Assembly (NCBI GenBank): GCA_026393755.1
Contig: JAPKZO010000004.1
Location: 1 to 57,105, forward strand
Direction of reading: 5' to 3'
DNA: 57,105 nt
Source of the DNA: Acidobacteriota bacterium
GTDB taxonomy: Bacteria > Acidobacteriota > Vicinamibacteria > Vicinamibacterales > JAKQTR01
In this document: piece after piece, positions 32,084 to 41,261 of the stretch
Layout: every line of letters begins with the position of its first letter
How positions within the stretch are numbered: the first letter of the stretch is position 1
The notes under the pieces: model-generated
Database searches by the model: none
Told to the model about the DNA's origin: nothing
Seen by the model: only the letters and a program-made list of their open reading frames with translations
Program-made: the position numbers and the translations under genes

Positions 32084-33409
32084 ATGAGCCTTCACCCGGT
32101 TCTGGCCGAGAAGCTGAGCGCGGCGCTGGCAGACGCGCCGCCGGTCGGGTTCACGCGGCGGGATGTTCGGCTGCCCGCGGTGACCGGTAAGGCGCACGCC
32201 GTGATCGGGATGCGCCGCGCGGGAAAGACCACGTTTTTGCGTCAGTTGCTGGGCGAGCGCCGGGCGGCCGGGCCTGCAGAGCGGGCGGTCTACCTCAGCT
32301 TCGACGACGACCGGCTGGCGGGGCTCGAACTCGACCAGCTTGGCTTCCTGCTCGAAGAGTACTACCGGCGTTACCCTGCACTGCGTGGGCGCGAGACGGT
32401 GTACTGGTTCCTCGACGAGATTCAGTTCGTTCCCGGGTGGGAACGCTTCGTCCGCCGCGTGTTGGACTCCGAACAGGCCGAGATCGTCGTCTCCGGTTCG
32501 TCGGCACGGATGCTCTCGCGCGAGGTCCACACGTCGTTACGTGGTCGCGGGATGGCGACCGTCATACGGCCCTTCAGCTTCCGCGAGTTTCTGCGCCACT
32601 GCGGAGACGAGCCGCGGCGCGAATCCCGGCGCTGGACGGCGGCCGAGCGGTCGCTCGTCGAGAAACGCTTTCGCGAGTACCTCGCCGAGGGCGGATTCCC
32701 TGAAGCACAGGGGCTATCGACGACTCTCCGGATCGAGCTGCTGCAAGGCTACGTGGATACCGTTCTCTTCCGCGACGTGGTCGAGCGTTACCGGGTGTCG
32801 CAGGTGGCCGCGCTTCGCTGGCTCGTGCGGCACTGCCTGCGCAGCCCTGCGGGGAGCTTCAGCGCTCACCGGCTGCATCAGGATCTGAAGGCACAGGGGC
32901 ACGGCGTGGCTAAGGACGCCGTACACTCGATGCTCGGCTACCTCCTGGATACCTTTCTGCTGAGCGCGGTGCCGCTGGCCACCGACTCGGAGCGCCAGCG
33001 CAACTCGAACCCGCGAAAGCTCTATCCCGCGGACCCTGGTTTCATCAAGGCCTTTGACGCTAGCGGTCGCTCGAACGTCGGCCACGCGCTCGAGAGCGTC
33101 GTGCTGAACGAACTCGAGAGGCGCGGCGCCGAGGTCGGCTACGTCAAGACGAGCGACGGGCTGGAGGTGGACTTTCTCGCGCGCCGGCCGGTCGCCGGAG
33201 ACGAACTGATCCAGGTGTGCGCGGACGCGTCGTCTTCCGACACGCTCGCTCGCGAGTTGCGGGCTTTGGCCGCAGCAGCGAAGGACCATCCGCGCGCGAC
33301 GCGTCGGCTGCTGGTGCTCGATCGCGACGCGCTCGCCCGGGTCGACACGCCAGGGGTCGAGGCGCAGCCGGCCTACGAGTGGCTCCTCGGGGCACCGGAC
33401 GAAGACTGA
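32084..33409 (+). CDS. AAA ATPase with DUF4143 domain
   Basis: A 441-residue protein with Walker A GMRRAGKTT (about residues 41-49), Walker B YWFLDEIQ (about 107-114), the sensor VSGSSARML, and the C-terminal DUF4143 region. That region ends in a PD-(D/E)xK-like pattern (ESVVLNELERRG, then EVDFLARR and ELIQVC). Such ATPases are widespread, patchily distributed and often linked to defence or toxin-like functions, but their role is not established. It overlaps the convergent symporter gene by 37 bases. Confidence 0.87.
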   Translation: MSLHPVLAEKLSAALADAPPVGFTRRDVRLPAVTGKAHAVIGMRRAGKTTFLRQLLGERRAAGPAERAVYLSFDDDRLAGLELDQLGFLLEEYYRRYPALRGRETVYWFLDEIQFVPGWERFVRRVLDSEQAEIVVSGSSARMLSREVHTSLRGRGMATVIRPFSFREFLRHCGDEPRRESRRWTAAERSLVEKRFREYLAEGGFPEAQGLSTTLRIELLQGYVDTVLFRDVVERYRVSQVAALRWLVRHCLRSPAGSFSAHRLHQDLKAQGHGVAKDAVHSMLGYLLDTFLLSAVPLATDSERQRNSNPRKLYPADPGFIKAFDASGRSNVGHALESVVLNELERRGAEVGYVKTSDGLEVDFLARRPVAGDELIQVCADASSSDTLARELRALAAAAKDHPRATRRLLVLDRDALARVDTPGVEAQPAYEWLLGAPDED

Positions 33410-34665
33410 ACAGGGACATCAGCCCGCTGTTCGCACCGGCCGACATAGACGGCGCACGTCAGGCTGCTCGTCAGATTGACGGTCGTCCGCAGCATGTCGA
33501 GCAGCCGGTCGACCCCAAGAACCAACGCAATCCCGGACACGGCGTGAGGCCCGAGGCCAATCGCGTTCAGCACGACCAGCGTGGTGACCAGTGAAGAGCC
33601 AGGGACTCCGGCGCCGGTGATCGCCGCGAGCGTGGCCGCGAAGACAATCGTCACGCAGGTCGCCGGCCCCAGACTGATGCCGTACACGAGGGCGATAAAC
33701 ACCGCCGTCGCCCCCTTGTAGACAGCCGCCCCATTCAGATTGAGCGTCGTGCCAAGCGGCAGTACGAAGGCGGCCACCTCGGCAGGCACACCGAGGTTCT
33801 TCGTCGCAACCTCGATGCTGACCGGCAGCGTTGCGCTCGAAGACGAAGTCGAGAACGCGACCAGCAGGGCCTTCGCGGCGCCCCGGACGAAGTCGAACAC
33901 CTTCATTCGCGCAAGCCACCTGACCGCGACTGCCAGCACGACAAGGTGGAGTGACAGGCCCGCGACGACCACGAGGCAGTACACGATCAGATGGCGGAGC
34001 AGGTCGACGCCGAACCGGGCGACCATGGCGCCAATCAGCGTGAACACGGCGTAGGGCGCCAGCGTCATGACCCAGCTGATAACGACCATGCAGGTGTCGT
34101 TGAGGCCAGTGAAGAACCGCACCATGCCCTGGCGCCGCTCCTCCGGAATCTGGCTGGCCGCCGCGCCGAAGATCAGCGTGCAGATGACCAGCGGCAGCAA
34201 CTCCATCCGGGCCGCCGCTCCGAAGGGGTTCTGCGGGATCATCGACAGCAGCAGTTGAATCAGTCCGGGCGCGGCATTGGCAGCCGCCGCTCGGCTCGCG
34301 TTGCCCTCAAACTGGGCGGCAAGCCCGTCCCGAATCGCGGGATCGAGTCCCTCACCAGGCCTGACCAGCAGCGCCACCGACATCCCAATCACGGCCCCGA
34401 TCATCGTCGTGGTCAGAAAGAAGCCGAGCGTCCGGCCGCCGAGCGTCCCGAGCCTGCGGCGCTCGCCAAGGGAGGCCATCGCCACAAACACGCTTCCGAC
34501 AATCAGCGGCACCACCACCATCAGAATCAGGTTGATGAACAGGGTGCCGAGCGGCTCGATCGAGATGAGCGCCCGAGCGATCCAGTCGCCGCCCGAGACC
34601 TGGGAAGCCACGCCGCACAAGGCGCCCGCCAGCAGGCCGATGAGGATCTTCGTGTGCTGTTTCAT
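33373..34665 (-). CDS. dicarboxylate/acidic amino acid symporter (DAACS family)
   Basis: A 430-residue glutamate-transporter-fold protein. Visible hallmarks are the serine-rich hairpin FSTSSSSATLPVS, the segment-7 motif PLGTTLNLNGAAVY, hairpin 2 AITGAGVPGSSLV and segment 8 GVDRLLDMLRTTVNLT. The Arg that holds an acidic side chain (LDMLRT) is kept, so the substrate should be a dicarboxylate or glutamate-like acid. Two sodium-site positions differ from the usual (NMDGT reads NLNGA, and the Asp after NxTG is Ser). It overlaps the small-subunit gene by four bases and ends the operon. Confidence 0.9.
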   Translation of the reverse strand: MKQHTKILIGLLAGALCGVASQVSGGDWIARALISIEPLGTLFINLILMVVVPLIVGSVFVAMASLGERRRLGTLGGRTLGFFLTTTMIGAVIGMSVALLVRPGEGLDPAIRDGLAAQFEGNASRAAAANAAPGLIQLLLSMIPQNPFGAAARMELLPLVICTLIFGAAASQIPEERRQGMVRFFTGLNDTCMVVISWVMTLAPYAVFTLIGAMVARFGVDLLRHLIVYCLVVVAGLSLHLVVLAVAVRWLARMKVFDFVRGAAKALLVAFSTSSSSATLPVSIEVATKNLGVPAEVAAFVLPLGTTLNLNGAAVYKGATAVFIALVYGISLGPATCVTIVFAATLAAITGAGVPGSSLVTTLVVLNAIGLGPHAVSGIALVLGVDRLLDMLRTTVNLTSSLTCAVYVGRCEQRADVPVQSSSGAPRSHS

Positions 34666-35174
34666 GGAATGGTGAAGTCGTGGCGCTTCCGGAAGTACGG
34701 GACGAGTCCGCCCTCGTCAAGGATCTGGAGCACGATCGCCGGAAGCGGATGTCCGTCGATCCTCCGGCCGTCAGTCCGATCGACGACTCTTGCGCCTCTC
34801 TCCTCGATCAGGACCTGGAGCCGCGCGCCGTTGGCAATCCCGGTGGTGTCGCACTCGATCGGAATCAGGCCGTTATTGATCGCGTTGCGATAATAGGTGC
34901 GCGCGAAACTCCTCGCCAGCACCGCGCGAATGCCGGCGGCCAGCACGGCGGTCACCGCCACCTCCATCGCCGAACCGCAGCCGAAATTCCGTCCCGCCAC
35001 CAGGAGATCGCCCGGCCTGATGGAAGCGGCCAGGAGGGGATCCACCGATTCGAACAGGAAGTGCCGCAGCACGCCAGGATCGAGCGAGTCCTTCTTCCGG
35101 CTCGACGAAATGATGTAGTCGGTGTTCACGTCATCGCCGAGGACAACGGCGCGGCCATCGAGTTCAATGGTCAT
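34662..35174 (-). CDS. aconitase-family dehydratase, small subunit (LeuD-like)
   Basis: The 170-residue swivel subunit of a heterodimeric LeuCD/homoaconitase-type enzyme. It has LGDDVNTDYIISSSRK, the GRNFGCGSAMEVAV loop and VLARSFARTYYRNAINNGL, all standard for this subunit. It would bind the substrate carboxylate together with the large subunit. The YIISSSRK stretch lies where the substrate-choosing loop of LeuD/HacB proteins is found. It overlaps both neighbours by four bases. Confidence 0.9.
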   Translation of the reverse strand: MTIELDGRAVVLGDDVNTDYIISSSRKKDSLDPGVLRHFLFESVDPLLAASIRPGDLLVAGRNFGCGSAMEVAVTAVLAAGIRAVLARSFARTYYRNAINNGLIPIECDTTGIANGARLQVLIEERGARVVDRTDGRRIDGHPLPAIVLQILDEGGLVPYFRKRHDFTIP

Positions 35175-36442
35175 GTCAGCGCCTCCGCGAACTCGCGCGG
35201 GTCGGTGATTCGGCCTCTGACAGCCGATGCGGCCGCGGTCGCAGGTGACGCGAGGTAGATCGACGCGGTCGCGTTCCCCATCCGGGCCTTGAAGTTCCGG
35301 TTCGCCGTGGAGATCACGTTCGCGCCGCGAGCGGGAATGGGAGGAGCGGTGCCGCAGCACGGCCCGCAGCCTGGGGGAATAATCGTCGCGCCCATCGCGC
35401 CGATCCGGTCCAATGTGCCGTCGGCGCGCAGTCGCGTCTCGACCTCGCGCGACGCCGGCGCGATGACCACGTGAACTCCCGGCGCAATTCGCCCGGCGGC
35501 CACGAGGATACGGGCCGCCTGATGGATGTCGCAGACCCGGCCGCCCGTGCAGGTGCCGACGAGGACCATGTGGACCGGCGTCCCGGCCGCCTGGCCGACG
35601 GCAACAACCCGATCAACCTGATGAGGCATCGCAATGCAGGGTTCGAGTTCGGCCAGATCGAGCTGAATCCGGCTGGCATAGACCGCGTCGGCGTCCGGCT
35701 CGATCGGCGTGAAAGGCTCGCCGGCGCGGGAGGCGAGGTAGCGTTCGGTTTTCGCATCGGCGCGAAAGATTCCCGCCTTCGCGCCCATCTCGACCGACAT
35801 GTTGCTGAGCACGAGCCGATCCTCGATCTCGAGGAGACCGGCGCCCGGTCCGTCGAACTCGAGCGCCTGGTAGGCCGCTCCATCTGCGCCAAGACGCCGG
35901 GCCAGCGCCAGCGCGATGTCCTTTGCGTACACCCCGGCCGCGGCAGCCCCGGTCAGCGTGATCTGGATCGTCTCTGGCACCCGCAGCCAGATGCGTCCGC
36001 TGATCATCGTCGCGGCAAGATCCGATGAACCGATGCCCGTCGCGAACGCGTTGAGCGCGCCTCCGGTCACCGAGTGGCTGTCCGCCCCGACGATCAAGCC
36101 GCCAGGACGCGTGCGTCCCGATTCGACCATCAGTTGATGACAGACGCCGTCACCGCAGTCATAGAGGACCGCGCCGTGGCGGGTCGCGAATTCCCGGGCG
36201 CGCGCCTGCAGGGAGAAGGTCGCCGCCATCGGGTCGGCCGCGTAGTGGTCGAACACGAACACGAGGCGCGCCGGATCGAAGACGCGGCGACCGTCCATCT
36301 GGTCGAAGTAGTCGAGCGCCATGGGAACAGAACCGTCGGTCCCCATCGCGACGTCCACGTCGCAGATGACGAGGTCTCCGGCACGGGCATCGCTGTGCGA
36401 GGCGCGCGACAGGATCTTCTCGCTGATGGTCTTACCCGGCAT
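35171..36442 (-). CDS. aconitase-family dehydratase, large subunit (LeuC-like)
   Basis: The 423-residue 4Fe-4S catalytic subunit. It begins KTISEKILSRAS, has CDVDVAMGTDGSVPM, FVFDHYAADP and GADSHSVTGGALNAFATGIG, and cluster cysteines in VGTCTGGR (about residue 296) and PGCGPCCG (about 357 and 360). The GCGPC form and the short length resemble the homoaconitase/isopropylmalate isomerase group of archaea and other (de)hydratases of unknown substrate rather than E. coli LeuC. No leuA or leuB is nearby, so leucine synthesis is unlikely. Confidence 0.92.
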   Translation of the reverse strand: MPGKTISEKILSRASHSDARAGDLVICDVDVAMGTDGSVPMALDYFDQMDGRRVFDPARLVFVFDHYAADPMAATFSLQARAREFATRHGAVLYDCGDGVCHQLMVESGRTRPGGLIVGADSHSVTGGALNAFATGIGSSDLAATMISGRIWLRVPETIQITLTGAAAAGVYAKDIALALARRLGADGAAYQALEFDGPGAGLLEIEDRLVLSNMSVEMGAKAGIFRADAKTERYLASRAGEPFTPIEPDADAVYASRIQLDLAELEPCIAMPHQVDRVVAVGQAAGTPVHMVLVGTCTGGRVCDIHQAARILVAAGRIAPGVHVVIAPASREVETRLRADGTLDRIGAMGATIIPPGCGPCCGTAPPIPARGANVISTANRNFKARMGNATASIYLASPATAAASAVRGRITDPREFAEALT

Positions 36443-36456
36443 GGTCGAAGACTGTA

Positions 36457-37548
36457 CTACCGCCCGGCCGCGCCCAACACCTCTGCCAGCGCGTCCATCG
36501 TGCGATGGACATCTGCAGGGCGAATGTCGCCCATGTGGCCGATGCGGAAGCACGTCGGTTCGTAGCGGCGCAGCCCAGGCCCCACCAGGATGCCGCGGGC
36601 CTTCAGCTGCTCGCGAATCCGCGCCGGGCTGACCCCGTCCGGCACGCGCAGCCCCGTCAGGGTCGGCGACAGATTGGTCAATCCTGGACACTGTGGCGAC
36701 AGCCCGAGCGAGGCGGCGCGACTCCGCGCAATGCGGGCCATCTCCGCGTGGCGCGCGAAGATCTGGTCGAGCCCCTCGGCCTCGATCAACTCGAGCGCGG
36801 CGTTGACCTGGGCGATCAGATGGACGGGTGTCGTGCTGGGCGTCTCGGGTCTCGTCCGGGCGAGCGTCTTCCTGATGGCCTGGAAGTCGAAATAGGAGCG
36901 AGGCAGCCGAGCCGTCGAATACGCATCCCACGCGCGCTGGCTGATAGCGACGAAGGCGATGCCGGGGCTCGACATCAGGCACTTCTGCGAGGCGGTAATG
37001 GCGAGGTCGACTCCCCACTCGTCGAAGCGGAAGGGCGTGCCGCCAATCGAACTGACTCCGTCCACCATCACAAGCGCGCCTGCGCGCCCGGCGACGCGCG
37101 CGATCGCCGCGACGTCGTTCAGCGCGCCTGTCGATGTGTCGCTGTGCGCGAGGAGCACGGCGCGCGCGAAGGGGTGCGCGCGGAAGGCGGTTTCCACGTC
37201 GGCCGGATCCACCGCCACGCCCCAGTCCGGGCTGATGCGATGGGCAACGACGCCAAACGCGTCGGCAATGTCTGCCCACATCTCGCCGAACACCCCGTCG
37301 CAGCAGACGACGATCTCGTCTCCGGGCGAGCACAGGTTGGTGATCGCCGCCTCTAGCGCTCCCCTGCCTGTCGAATGGACTGGCAAAATGTCTCCGCCCG
37401 TCCCGAACAACGGCCGGAGTTTCTCGATGACCGACCCGAGCATGCGGCCGAACTCGTCGGTGCGATGGTGAATCATCGGGATCGCGCCGGCCGCCAAAAC
37501 CCGCTCAGGCACTCGGGTCGGCCCGGGGGTCATCAGCAACAGCTCCAT
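36457..37548 (-). CDS. class V aminotransferase
   Basis: A 363-residue PLP enzyme of the alanine-glyoxylate/serine-glyoxylate/AEP transaminase group. It starts LLMTPGPTRVPERVL, has HHRTDEF, VHSTGRGALEAAI, LAHSDTSTG and VDGVSSIGG, and the PLP lysine is in ITASQKCLMSSPG (about residue 188). The ATG at 37548 follows GGGAG and overlaps the aldolase stop as TGATG. In this operon it probably removes or adds the amino group of the substrate that the symporter imports. Confidence 0.88.
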   Translation of the reverse strand: MELLLMTPGPTRVPERVLAAGAIPMIHHRTDEFGRMLGSVIEKLRPLFGTGGDILPVHSTGRGALEAAITNLCSPGDEIVVCCDGVFGEMWADIADAFGVVAHRISPDWGVAVDPADVETAFRAHPFARAVLLAHSDTSTGALNDVAAIARVAGRAGALVMVDGVSSIGGTPFRFDEWGVDLAITASQKCLMSSPGIAFVAISQRAWDAYSTARLPRSYFDFQAIRKTLARTRPETPSTTPVHLIAQVNAALELIEAEGLDQIFARHAEMARIARSRAASLGLSPQCPGLTNLSPTLTGLRVPDGVSPARIREQLKARGILVGPGLRRYEPTCFRIGHMGDIRPADVHRTMDALAEVLGAAGR

Positions 37549-38261
37549 CACACCACTCCCTTCGCCCGCAGCGTGTCGTTGATCTCGGCCTTGAACACGA
37601 CGCCGCCGCGAATCTCCGCGACGCGTCTGGCCTCGCGCTCCTTCAGCGCACGGACCAGCGTGAGCACCTGTTCGGCATCCTCGCGCGGCACGACGACGGC
37701 ACCGTCGTCGTCGCCGACGATAATGTCGCCGGGCCTGACGACCGTGTTGCCGCAGGCGATCGGGACGTTAATCTCACCAGGGCCGTCCTTGTCGCAGCCC
37801 CCGGCCGACACCGATCGGCTGAAGGCCGGAAACCCGAGTTCCGTCAGGGCGCTCACATCCCGAATGGCGCCGTCGACGACCAGACCGCCCAGTCGCGCCG
37901 CGATCGCGGAGTTGCCCATCAATTCGCCGAACACGGCGCTGGTGGTGTTGCCGCTCGTGTTCACGACGATGATGTCGCCGGGATGAGCAACCTCCATCGC
38001 CTTGTGGACCATCAGGTTGTCGGCTGGGCGCGCCATCACCGTAACCGCGACACCGCATAGAGGCAGTCCGGTCCGCATCCTGATGCCGGGATCCATGAAG
38101 TGAAATCGCCCCATCGCGTCGGCGAGATTTGACGAGGCCAGCCCGACAAACTGCTGAACCAGCGACGGATCGGGGCGATCCGGATCAGTGAAGATCCGGA
38201 AGCCTATTTTGCCTGTGTGCTGAATGATCGGCCCCTCCTGTGTCGGGCCGATAGTATACAC
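37548..38261 (-). CDS. RraA-like HMG/CHA aldolase
   Basis: Family members split 4-hydroxy-4-methyl-2-oxoglutarate into two pyruvates, or 4-carboxy-4-hydroxy-2-oxoadipate into pyruvate and oxaloacetate. The core is intact: NLADAMGRF near the N-terminus, GDIIVVNTSGNTTSAVFGE and GGLVVDGAIRDVSALTELGF with the catalytic Arg-Asp pair. The start is unclear. GTG 38261 overlaps a TATACT box; a strong AGGAGG lies just before an in-frame ATT at 38225, and the conserved region begins soon after with KIGFRIF. First gene of the operon. Confidence 0.87.
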   Translation of the reverse strand: MYTIGPTQEGPIIQHTGKIGFRIFTDPDRPDPSLVQQFVGLASSNLADAMGRFHFMDPGIRMRTGLPLCGVAVTVMARPADNLMVHKAMEVAHPGDIIVVNTSGNTTSAVFGELMGNSAIAARLGGLVVDGAIRDVSALTELGFPAFSRSVSAGGCDKDGPGEINVPIACGNTVVRPGDIIVGDDDGAVVVPREDAEQVLTLVRALKEREARRVAEIRGGVVFKAEINDTLRAKGVV

Positions 38262-38324
38262 AAGGCCGGCCTGAGGCGTGCCCTGCACGGCTGGATGGCG
38301 CAGGCGGCTGGCTCGCGCGGCGGA

Positions 38325-39719
38325 TTATTTCTTCAGGAGCACGAGGGCAACGCCGTCCCCGTACGCCGCGACCGCTCCCATCGGCATGGCCCCGACGTAG
38401 TCCGGACTGAGCGCGAATTTCCTGATGAGGTACGTCCGCACCTTCATTGCACGCTCACGCGAGCGCAGGAACTGATCGTCCAGCGTGCCGGCCACGACAT
38501 AACCTTCCACGATGATCGCGCGATCCTTCGTGAACCGCAGGAAGTTCGCCATCACCGCGTCGAGTCGTGCCTTTCCCGCGTCCGACAATTCCTCCCCGCC
38601 TCCGGCCTTGAGCGCAAACAGTTCGTCCTGCCGCATCCAGACCCGTTGCTTGGTCACATTGCTTTCGAACTGCTTGGACTGATACTCGACCGGAGAGAGG
38701 CTCCCGAGATCGTAGAAGCCGCGGTCCTTGAAGAACCCGCGGAAGAAGAAGCTGTGTTTCAGCGCCTCCAGATTCTCGGCGAGATCCGACATGGCCTCAC
38801 GGGCGCTGCCGAGCGTGGCTCGGAGATCTGCGCCTGCGCCGTCCCCGCCTCCTGGCCCCGGTTGGAAGGCCGACACCAGCACCTTCACGCGCTCGGACGA
38901 TTCGCCCACATTCTTCACGGTCCGCTCGATGTCCGCCGGCATGTCTCCGGACTTGAATCGCGACACCAGGGCCCTCACGTCCGAGGACGCCTGGCCGACG
39001 TTCTCCATCACTCGTTGGACCTCAGTGGCCGAGGCCGACAGACTGTTGTACACCGCGGGATCGTTCACGAGTCTGCCCAGCGTGCCCTCGCCGGCCCGGA
39101 CGCGCGCCAGGATCGCGCCCGCATCCTCGGAGATTCTGCTCACCGCGATCGTGAATCGATCCATCGGATCCTGAATGGCGACGACGATCTGATCGACATG
39201 CTTCGCCGTGTCGGCGACGGTCTGCGTGGCGTTGGTAACGTCGCCCTTGACGGCGCCGACGGTCATGTCGATGTTCGAGACGGTGCTCCGGATTCTGGCC
39301 AGGAGATCGCCAATCTCGAAGGGCTCCCGACTCGGGAGCGTGCATCCGGGCGGCGCCAGCGTGGTGGTCCCGATATCCACCAGCAGAAACTTGTTTCCGA
39401 GCAGGCCATCGGTGGCGATGCTCGCGACCGAGTCGAGGCGAACGACGGAAAACAGCTTCTCGACGATCTTGAACTTCACACGAAAGGTGGATTTTGGCCC
39501 CCGGGGAACGCGGATTTCGATCACCTCGCCTGCGTTCATGCCTCCAACCCGGACCTTCGCTCCAACCTCGAGGGCGCTGACCTGCGCAAATTCCGTGTAG
39601 TACTCGTGGCTCGCGGAAAACAGCATGCGCCGGTCCCCGATCAGGAACAGGCCCAGCCCGAACAGCAGCAGGCCTCCAATCACGAACGCTCCCATCGCGG
39701 CTCTATCCGTGGATGCCAT
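38325..39719 (-). CDS. mlaD: MlaD-type MCE protein with C-terminal OmpA-like domain
   Basis: A 464-residue protein. One membrane segment (about residues 8-26) and an MCE domain (about 38-118, with YYTEFAQVSALEVGAKVRVG and GLLGNKFLLVDIG) are followed by a long helical region (about 130-300) and a C-terminal domain (about 370-464). That last domain resembles OmpA: LDAVMANFLRFTKDRAIIVEGY then SRERAMKVRTYLIRKFAL. MlaD forms a hexameric ring that moves phospholipid across the periplasm. The extra domain could hold peptidoglycan. No mlaC or mlaB is present. Confidence 0.85.
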   Translation of the reverse strand: MASTDRAAMGAFVIGGLLLFGLGLFLIGDRRMLFSASHEYYTEFAQVSALEVGAKVRVGGMNAGEVIEIRVPRGPKSTFRVKFKIVEKLFSVVRLDSVASIATDGLLGNKFLLVDIGTTTLAPPGCTLPSREPFEIGDLLARIRSTVSNIDMTVGAVKGDVTNATQTVADTAKHVDQIVVAIQDPMDRFTIAVSRISEDAGAILARVRAGEGTLGRLVNDPAVYNSLSASATEVQRVMENVGQASSDVRALVSRFKSGDMPADIERTVKNVGESSERVKVLVSAFQPGPGGGDGAGADLRATLGSAREAMSDLAENLEALKHSFFFRGFFKDRGFYDLGSLSPVEYQSKQFESNVTKQRVWMRQDELFALKAGGGEELSDAGKARLDAVMANFLRFTKDRAIIVEGYVVAGTLDDQFLRSRERAMKVRTYLIRKFALSPDYVGAMPMGAVAAYGDGVALVLLKK

Positions 39720-40470
39720 GCTCGCCCTCCGTCGCTGAACTCATGAACTGCCGGACGATCTCGTCCCGGCTCCGGTCCAGCTCGTCGGCCGTGCCCTGGG
39801 CGGCGATGTGTCCCTTGTGCAGGATGATCAGGTTGTCGCCGAGGCTTCGCGCGCCGGGCACGCTGTGTGTCACAACCACCAGCGTCGTGCGGCTCGACGA
39901 CTTCAGGTCCATCAGGAGCGCGTCGATTTCCCGCGTCGTGATGGGGTCGAGGCCACTGCCTGGCTCGTCGACAAGCAGGATGGACGGCTTCAGCGCCATC
40001 GCCCGCGCCAGCCCCACCCGCTTCTGCATGCCTCCCGACAAGTCGAGCGGCATCTTGTCGAGATCGGCTTCGAGCCCGACGTCCGCCAGCCTCTCGCGAA
40101 CCGAACGCGCGATCTCCGCCTCGGACATCCGTGTGTGGCGGCGAAGCGGAAACGCGACGTTGTCGGCGACCGAGAGCGAATCAAAGAGCGCGGAGTACTG
40201 AAAGAGGAACCCCATCGTCTTTCGCACGTCCACCAGGCCGGCACTATCGAGGGCTTCAATCGGGGTCTGGTTCACGTAGATGTGTCCGGCATCCGGCTTT
40301 AACAAGCCCATCAGCAGCTTCAACGTGACGCTCTTTCCAGTCCCGCTGCGCCCCATGATGCAGCACGCGGTGCCACGAGGCACGTCGAAGGAGACGTCAT
40401 CCAGGATCACGTCGTCATCGAACGCCTTGGTCACGTGGTCGAAGCGGATCGCGGGGCCGGCCGGAGTCAT
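39703..40470 (-). CDS. mlaF: MlaF, ATPase of the phospholipid ABC transporter
   Basis: A 255-residue ABC ATPase that powers MlaE. Walker A is GRSGTGKSVT (about residues 39-48), the signature is LSGGMQKRVGLARAM, and Walker B is ILLVDEPGSGLDP; FLFQYSALFDSLSV is the Q-loop of this subfamily. ATG 40470 overlaps the mlaE stop as ATGA and the gene overlaps mlaD by 17 bases. Confidence 0.93.
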   Translation of the reverse strand: MTPAGPAIRFDHVTKAFDDDVILDDVSFDVPRGTACCIMGRSGTGKSVTLKLLMGLLKPDAGHIYVNQTPIEALDSAGLVDVRKTMGFLFQYSALFDSLSVADNVAFPLRRHTRMSEAEIARSVRERLADVGLEADLDKMPLDLSGGMQKRVGLARAMALKPSILLVDEPGSGLDPITTREIDALLMDLKSSSRTTLVVVTHSVPGARSLGDNLIILHKGHIAAQGTADELDRSRDEIVRQFMSSATEGEHGIHG

Positions 40471-41261
40471 AGCGCACCAGCCGGAAACAGCAGGAAGATA
40501 ATCCGGACCAGGATGACGTTGACGACAATCAGGATCATCGATGACATGACGACGCTGCGCGTCGACGCCCGGCCGATCCCTTCGGATCCGCCCGTGGTCG
40601 TGTATCCCAGGTAGGCGGACACCGTGCCGATGATGAAGCCGAACACGACGGTCTTCAGCGTCGGCAGGATGTAATCCATGAAGCCGATGTCGGCAAACGC
40701 GGCCTGGAGATAGAGCCGCAACGACACCTGCGACATCGCCGTCTCGGCCAGGAAGCCGCCAATCATCCCGGAGGCATTCATGACCGTCGTGAGAATCGGC
40801 AGCGCGATCATGCAGGCGATGATGCGCGTGACCACCAGGTAGTGGAACGAGTCCACGGCCAGCGATTCCAACGCGTCGATCTGCTCGGTCACCCGCATAC
40901 CGCCGAGTTCGGCGCCAATGCCGGCACCCACGCGCCCGGAAACAAGCAGTCCAGTCATCAGTGGGCCGGTCTCGGCGATCAGCGACGTCGCGAGGGCCGC
41001 CGGGATCATCGCGGCCGCGCCGAATCGCTCCATCGTCGCCCGTGTGTGCATGGAGAGCACGACACCGATGGCGAACCCGGAAGTCATCACCAGCGGCAAC
41101 GAGCGCCAGCCGGCCATGGAGATCTGATGCGTGACTTCTCGAAGCTCGAAGGGCGGCTGGAACGCCACCCGGATGGCTCTCATCGCAAAGGCGCTGATCT
41201 GTCCTGCCTCTGACACGAATAGCCTGACCGGGCCCGGCGGGGCGTGTACTGAAGTCGCCAT
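40467..41261 (-). CDS. mlaE: MlaE, permease of the phospholipid ABC transporter
   Basis: A 264-residue membrane permease. It keeps the family's GRVGAGIGAELGGMRVTEQI motif followed by DALESLAVD, and has five to six hydrophobic segments. It forms the membrane channel of the Mla lipid transporter with MlaF and MlaD. ATG 41261 is only ten bases after a GATAAT box and has no Shine-Dalgarno site, so the leader is very short. The longer frame to 41339 crosses the promoter. Confidence 0.92.
   Translation of the reverse strand: MATSVHAPPGPVRLFVSEAGQISAFAMRAIRVAFQPPFELREVTHQISMAGWRSLPLVMTSGFAIGVVLSMHTRATMERFGAAAMIPAALATSLIAETGPLMTGLLVSGRVGAGIGAELGGMRVTEQIDALESLAVDSFHYLVVTRIIACMIALPILTTVMNASGMIGGFLAETAMSQVSLRLYLQAAFADIGFMDYILPTLKTVVFGFIIGTVSAYLGYTTTGGSEGIGRASTRSVVMSSMILIVVNVILVRIIFLLFPAGAL

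Follow-up and report, generated by a model that had tools for sequence, protein, structure and literature searches.

A MlaEFD-type operon in an Acidobacteriota genome with a long MlaD fused to an OmpA-like domain, and a candidate outer-membrane partner in one clade of relatives

How does a long MlaD that carries no barrel of its own meet the outer membrane? A bridge formed by long MlaD with MlaEFD alone was described for Veillonella and proposed for most diderms by Grasekamp et al. 2023, the accessible text of which presents MlaABC as mostly proteobacterial and, for bacteria other than Proteobacteria, describes a long MlaD with no more than MlaEFD as the rule (PMC10665443). The same text leaves open the outer-membrane contact of the barrel-less long MlaD, which are the majority, and suggests yet-unidentified partners (PMC10665443). 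A further bridge, Mpc, was reported from Brucella by Lannoy et al. 2025 (PMC12436622). The question arises for a locus in a stretch of 57,105 nucleotides from an Acidobacteriota bacterium (the whole stretch is called the window here), in which open reading frame calls place three overlapping genes on the minus strand at 38325-41261, in the order mlaE, mlaF and a gene for an MCE protein with an additional C-terminal domain. The features of the locus are as follows.

40467..41261, minus strand: mlaE, permease of 264 aa (Pfam MlaE PF02405, 212 bits)
39703..40470, minus strand: mlaF, ABC ATPase of 255 aa (Pfam ABC_tran, 105 bits)
38325..39719, minus strand: mlaD-type gene for an MCE protein of 464 aa that ends in an OmpA-like domain (open reading frame and Pfam)
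39636..39698, minus strand: N-terminal transmembrane helix, residues ~8-28 (read from the sequence; a helix in the low-confidence model)
39384..39608, minus strand: MCE domain, residues 38-112 (MlaD PF02470, 43.4 bits, cut-off 25.1)
38766..39326, minus strand: predicted helical stem, residues ~132-318 (low-confidence model)
38718..38765, minus strand: stem-tip motif ALKxxFFFRGFFKxRG, residues 319-334 (several positions invariant in alignments)
38328..38651, minus strand: OmpA-like domain, residues ~357-464 (Pfam, family profiles, alignments)

The start of mlaF overlaps the stop of mlaE, the start of mlaD overlaps the stop of mlaF by 17 bp, and the MlaEFD core is encoded in one operon. MlaE also matches TIGR00056 at 194.5 bits, under the cut-off of 212.2, and the top NCBIfam match of MlaF is MlaF PRK11831, likewise under its cut-off. 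No STAS (MlaB) domain was detected by Pfam, either fused to MlaE or elsewhere in the operon; STAS_2 occurs at three places of the genome, all on other contigs, and the absence of a linked MlaB that had been noticed in the window is confirmed.

The genome (4.43 Mb in 42 contigs, completeness listed as 100%) contains a single PF02470 (MCE) locus. A search of the whole genome yielded no PF05494 (MlaC) match and no PF04333 (MlaA) match, while the same searches were positive in the E. coli and Caulobacter controls. The earlier note had stated that MlaC is missing and had named an mlaC gene elsewhere as evidence to the contrary; the statement can now be extended from the window to the genome. The locus shares MlaE, MlaF and the MCE protein with the Mla system of E. 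coli (MlaFEDB-C-A), which differs in its short MlaD of 183 aa, the shuttle MlaC and the lipoprotein MlaA, the last two absent here. It is closer to Veillonella parvula, where MlaE, MlaF and a long MlaD (transmembrane helix, MCE domain and a long helix of ~150 residues) occur with neither MlaC nor MlaA and a bridge has been proposed (PMC10665443, accessible text). In Veillonella the C-terminus of MlaD is an outer-membrane barrel of ten strands, the location of which was established by fractionation (PMC10665443), whereas the MlaD of the window has no such barrel and is OmpA-like by profiles. The Mpc system (MpcEFDA) of Brucella abortus similarly combines a MlaEF-type transporter with a long helical MlaD (331 aa), for which a bridge was modelled; as described in the text available, the permease MpcE includes a STAS domain and the fourth component, MpcA, is a lipoprotein resembling PqiC (PMC12436622), whereas the MlaE of the window has no STAS match.

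The stem that follows the MCE domain comprises ~190 residues, helical in the low-confidence model, and in this respect resembles the long helix of the Veillonella-type bridge. The model of the full MCE protein, folded without an alignment, has a pLDDT of 44.9. If its 175 helical residues (within residues 136-332) formed one extended line with a rise of 0.15 nm per residue, the stem would measure 26 nm, which is plausibly enough to span the periplasm. Two glycine-rich breaks, GEGTLG and GPGGGDGAG, argue against a single straight rod. Stem length varies between 79 and 194 residues over the fused family (first 25 sequences), which precludes one uniform mode of bridging for all members. The helical region had been called unusually long, which is appropriate in comparison with E. 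coli and not in comparison with MlaD generally, of which 85% are long, with 374 aa on average, in the survey given in the accessible text of PMC10665443. Similarly, the suggestion that a long stem bridges the periplasm without MlaC is plausible with respect to length and stays a conjecture for this protein, and the mechanism as such had already been published (PMC10665443).

The assignment of the C-terminal domain, the tip, depends on its relatives. Taken by itself, the window protein scores 20.3 bits against Pfam OmpA (cut-off 27.2, E 7e-4) and a phmmer search of its tip against the PDB found no OmpA, which makes an assignment from this protein alone doubtful. Fused genes from related genomes fall into two clades (support 100), of which the one that includes the window protein is here called the near clade. 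With a profile built from the C-terminal regions of 13 homologues, the best PDB match is OmpA (E 7.5e-8), and the chains found up to an E-value of 0.1 are those of OmpA, Pal, YiaD, MotY and proteins resembling them. The signal does not come solely from the second, more OmpA-like clade, as a profile of 16 near-clade tips alone also finds OmpA first (E 9.3e-5), and the only Pfam family matched by these tips is OmpA, in 12 of the 16 (E <= 0.1). In a profile-profile comparison, four OmpA/Pal domains from the window's own genome gave a probability of 96, and the tip is collinear with the OmpA/Pal C-terminal domain PF00691 from the first strand to the last. Foldseek with the model of the tip, which was likewise folded without an alignment and is poor (pLDDT 51.5), listed IF3 as the best match (E 0.011) and OmpA-like domains from rank 9 (E 0.09); this listing is left out of the evidence. 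Because the family profiles match, with the window protein alone below the threshold, we conclude from the profile comparisons that the C-terminal domain is homologous to OmpA. The fusion of MlaD to an OmpA-like domain proposed in the earlier note is upheld, the MCE part by Pfam and the OmpA homology by family profiles, and the C-terminal region scores as no other Pfam family.

As many as 384 of the 396 genomes of the phylum match the fused-family profile, mostly via the MCE part or other OmpA domains, and matches to the C-terminal domain comprise at least 26 loci in 25 of these 396 genomes. At the level of the order, such a C-terminal match was found in 52 of 149 genomes, and in two of these it is a fragment. 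Stems measure 161-194 residues in the near clade and 79-143 in the second clade (first 25 sequences). Of the 26 regions read, counting the window, 25 have the order mlaE-mlaF-mlaD(OmpA); the other lies on a contig of 4.2 kb, which stops shortly before the MCE gene would begin. One genome (G084) holds a fused MlaD of each clade (L007 and L079), each with its own mlaE and mlaF. A search of a contig collection with the window protein returned one relative, a spirochaete MCE protein without the tip, and a plasmid search one weak mycobacterial MCE match.

The tip, in contrast to the OmpA/Pal domains of PF00691, is attached to an inner-membrane MCE protein and not to an outer-membrane anchor, and nearly all fused members have lost the wall-binding Asp and the NRR motif of those domains. 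In the OmpA of A. baumannii, diaminopimelate is reported to be contacted by Asp271 and Arg286 (PMC5974059, PMC12108004, accessible text). The equivalent positions in the window, where the Asp is absent and the Arg present, are as follows.

38493..38495, minus strand: Val409, equivalent to Asp271 in the OmpA of A. baumannii (aligned with four OmpA/Pal domains from this genome)
38451..38453, minus strand: Arg423, equivalent to Arg286 in the OmpA of A. baumannii, retained (alignment)

The comparison was extended to 47 fused homologues, which leave out one broken gene (genome G352), and to 33 ordinary OmpA domains from 16 genomes (the own genome and relatives), which are the best-scoring loci and so lean canonical. 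The Asp271 equivalent is Asp in 4/47 fused homologues as opposed to 27/33 ordinary domains, and 14 different residues are found at this position across the fused family. The NRR motif near the end is found in none of the 47 fused and all 33 ordinary domains, while the Arg286 equivalent is Arg in 41/47 and 33/33, respectively. Fisher tests of fused against ordinary domains, in which relatedness is ignored, gave 1.4e-11 at the Asp position and 3e-23 at the NRR motif. Six of the 33 ordinary domains, all from relatives, form a recurrent subgroup in which the wall-binding position has Cys instead of Asp (GHTCNIG or GHTCSIG; L138, L143, L144, L145, L146 and L151).

Other positions of the tip are strongly conserved. 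In all 16 near-clade tips aligned, the first strand carries R-x-W and the former GHTD site reads E-G, and 37 of 38 near-clade members have a W-x-G near the end, in the place of NRR; the only exception is the window protein. The wall-binding site is mostly lost in the fused family, and the simplest reading of this pattern is that the tip is under selection, though not for the old ligand. The tip could alternatively bind peptidoglycan and keep the stem upright despite the changed Asp, and the Arg retained by most members, the ordinary domains in which the Asp is likewise not invariant and the four fused members that have kept it are all compatible with such an anchor; the Arg at the position of Arg423 may even maintain an altered wall contact. 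Nevertheless, one of the two reported diaminopimelate contacts is Val in the window and almost freely variable over the family, and NRR has disappeared throughout, so that we consider a wall anchor unlikely and a docking part more likely. The term "wall-anchored", under which this MlaD was introduced in the earlier note, is consequently weakened and finds no support in these residues (Val409 for Asp, few Asp and no NRR in the family), although the conserved Arg keeps it from being refuted.

The loss of W-x-G raises the question whether the window copy is functional at all. The window protein clusters with four proteins of another class (support 97) on a long branch, and no fused MlaD was found in the four genomes of the same genus or family that were searched, which gave weak matches only (E 1e-7 to 1e-4). 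Transfer or repeated loss would explain this patchy occurrence, and the window protein may be drifting, given its long branch and the absent W-x-G. In one relative (L049, G352:C1:3003712-3005067) a TGA lies inside the match to the fused MlaD, which may reflect either disruption of the gene or an error in sequencing. All this would fit a decaying or dispensable copy, acquired or kept by chance and with no bridging role in this organism. Against it, the reading frame is open, MlaE, MlaF and the MCE domain are intact, the stem-tip motif is conserved and the gene is the only MCE gene of its genome; we regard decay as very improbable.

The neighbourhood of the operon in related genomes points to a possible partner. 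Directly upstream of mlaE, on the same strand, a gene for a protein of 302-321 aa is found in 6 of the 12 order-level regions (the window counted), in each case encoding a BON domain followed by a predicted barrel:

L067, 5179-6141, upstream of mlaE: BON and predicted barrel gene
L068, 2908-3813, upstream of mlaE: BON and predicted barrel gene
L069, 9473-10393, upstream of mlaE: BON and predicted barrel gene
L070, 9697-10638, upstream of mlaE: BON and predicted barrel gene
L081, 7510-8457, upstream of mlaE: BON and predicted barrel gene
L083, 8366-9277, upstream of mlaE: BON and predicted barrel gene

The BON domain is well supported (Pfam E 5e-16 to 2e-8), and a profile of the BON part finds OsmY at 4.6e-24 and DolP at 1.1e-13. 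Most of the six proteins carry near the N-terminus a Cys that we take to be lipobox-like. The C-terminal part may form a small outer-membrane barrel, a reading weakly suggested mainly by the C-terminal Phe, invariant in all six, and by two OmpW matches below the cut-off (E 0.046 and 0.09). The alternating hydrophobicity of the predicted barrel exceeds the shuffled mean in all six proteins, and in only three of them is it reached by no more than 21 of 500 shuffles. DolP (YraP) shares the BON domain with these proteins and has two of them, the second of which is reported to bind anionic phospholipids (PMC7806268, accessible text), whereas the neighbour protein has one BON domain and the predicted barrel.

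The BON-plus-barrel gene occurs in 28 of the 149 genomes of the order, and 27 of these 28 also have the fused MlaD. In 25 of the 28 it lies on the same contig and strand as the MCE gene, with 1542-2380 bp between the two, roughly the length that mlaE and mlaF occupy; in two the genes are on different contigs, and the remaining genome, G501 with a completeness of 84%, yielded no fused MlaD. In a sample of 247 genomes of the phylum the full-length protein was recovered in four, all from this order and all with the fused MlaD. In the tree, the 18 MlaD sequences that have the gene linked to them make up a single clade (support 100), which implies one gain or one retention of the partner; 27 joint occurrences must therefore not be counted as 27 independent events. 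Within this clade, the BON-plus-barrel protein is a candidate for the outer-membrane partner of the fused MlaD. In four further regions of the order, the same upstream place is taken by a gene for a sigma-54 response regulator on the same strand, hinting at regulated expression, and one contig is too short:

L082, 8284-9699, just upstream of mlaE: sigma-54 response regulator
L084, 7676-9115, just upstream of mlaE: sigma-54 response regulator
L085, 4599-6029, just upstream of mlaE: sigma-54 response regulator
L086, 787-2226, just upstream of mlaE: sigma-54 response regulator

No BON-plus-barrel gene was found in the genome of the window, which has just short BON matches elsewhere, and no linked BON partner in the five regions of other-class relatives or the nine of the second clade. 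This counts against a docking role of the window copy and would suit a tip that acts as a structural cap, joining the six stem ends and touching neither wall nor outer membrane, with the lipid received by an unlinked outer-membrane protein or loaded by soluble carriers; the conservation of core and motif in the tip without that of the old ligand site would also be expected of a cap. The tight linkage of the BON-plus-barrel gene suggests, on the other hand, that an outer-membrane partner exists at least in one clade, and the cap seems to us rather improbable.

We consider it an even chance that the operon encodes a transporter whose stems cross the periplasm and end in an OmpA-derived docking part. 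The three genes would form a lipid transporter of the MlaEFD core, with MlaE in the inner membrane and MlaF beneath it. Six copies of the MCE protein would build a ring atop MlaE and send their stems across the periplasm, and lipid would travel along them, which would make an MlaC shuttle dispensable; cargo, hexamer and direction are taken from the relatives named above. At the end of each stem the OmpA-derived tip, largely without the ancestral wall-binding site, would dock to a partner in the outer membrane or envelope or organise itself against one. More tentatively, and with the doubts outweighing the arguments, one may see here a separate type of trans-envelope conduit, in which an OmpA wall domain became a docking tip and lost its wall ligand site, and in which one clade uses a dedicated outer-membrane receiver (a lipid-binding BON domain on a small barrel) in place of MlaA and the Veillonella barrel; in the organism of the window, another outer-membrane protein would occupy that place.

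Bridging without MlaC was known already, and, as far as our searches tell, the OmpA-derived tip, the loss of the wall site and the BON partner are new within the literature searched. No description of an MCE-OmpA fusion or of its pairing with a BON gene was found there (subscription journals and preprints are mostly outside this coverage), and OmpA is not mentioned in the accessible text of the Veillonella (PMC10665443) and Brucella Mpc (PMC12436622) papers. For the junction between long MlaD and the outer membrane, the fused tip and, linked to its operon in one clade, the BON-plus-predicted-barrel gene now provide concrete, testable candidates, and the tip illustrates how a wall-binding fold is reused, most likely for a purpose other than wall binding.

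In the window itself, a divergent MFS gene lies upstream of mlaE. Downstream, a RraA-like gene begins ~36 bp past the stop of the MCE gene and is followed by a class V aminotransferase and more metabolic open reading frames (33373-38288, minus strand), possibly co-transcribed with the transporter. The RraA-like gene was rejected as a member of the system, being absent from the neighbours common to at least three of 14 regions. A 6S RNA is located at 203-383 on the plus strand of the window (85.3 bits).
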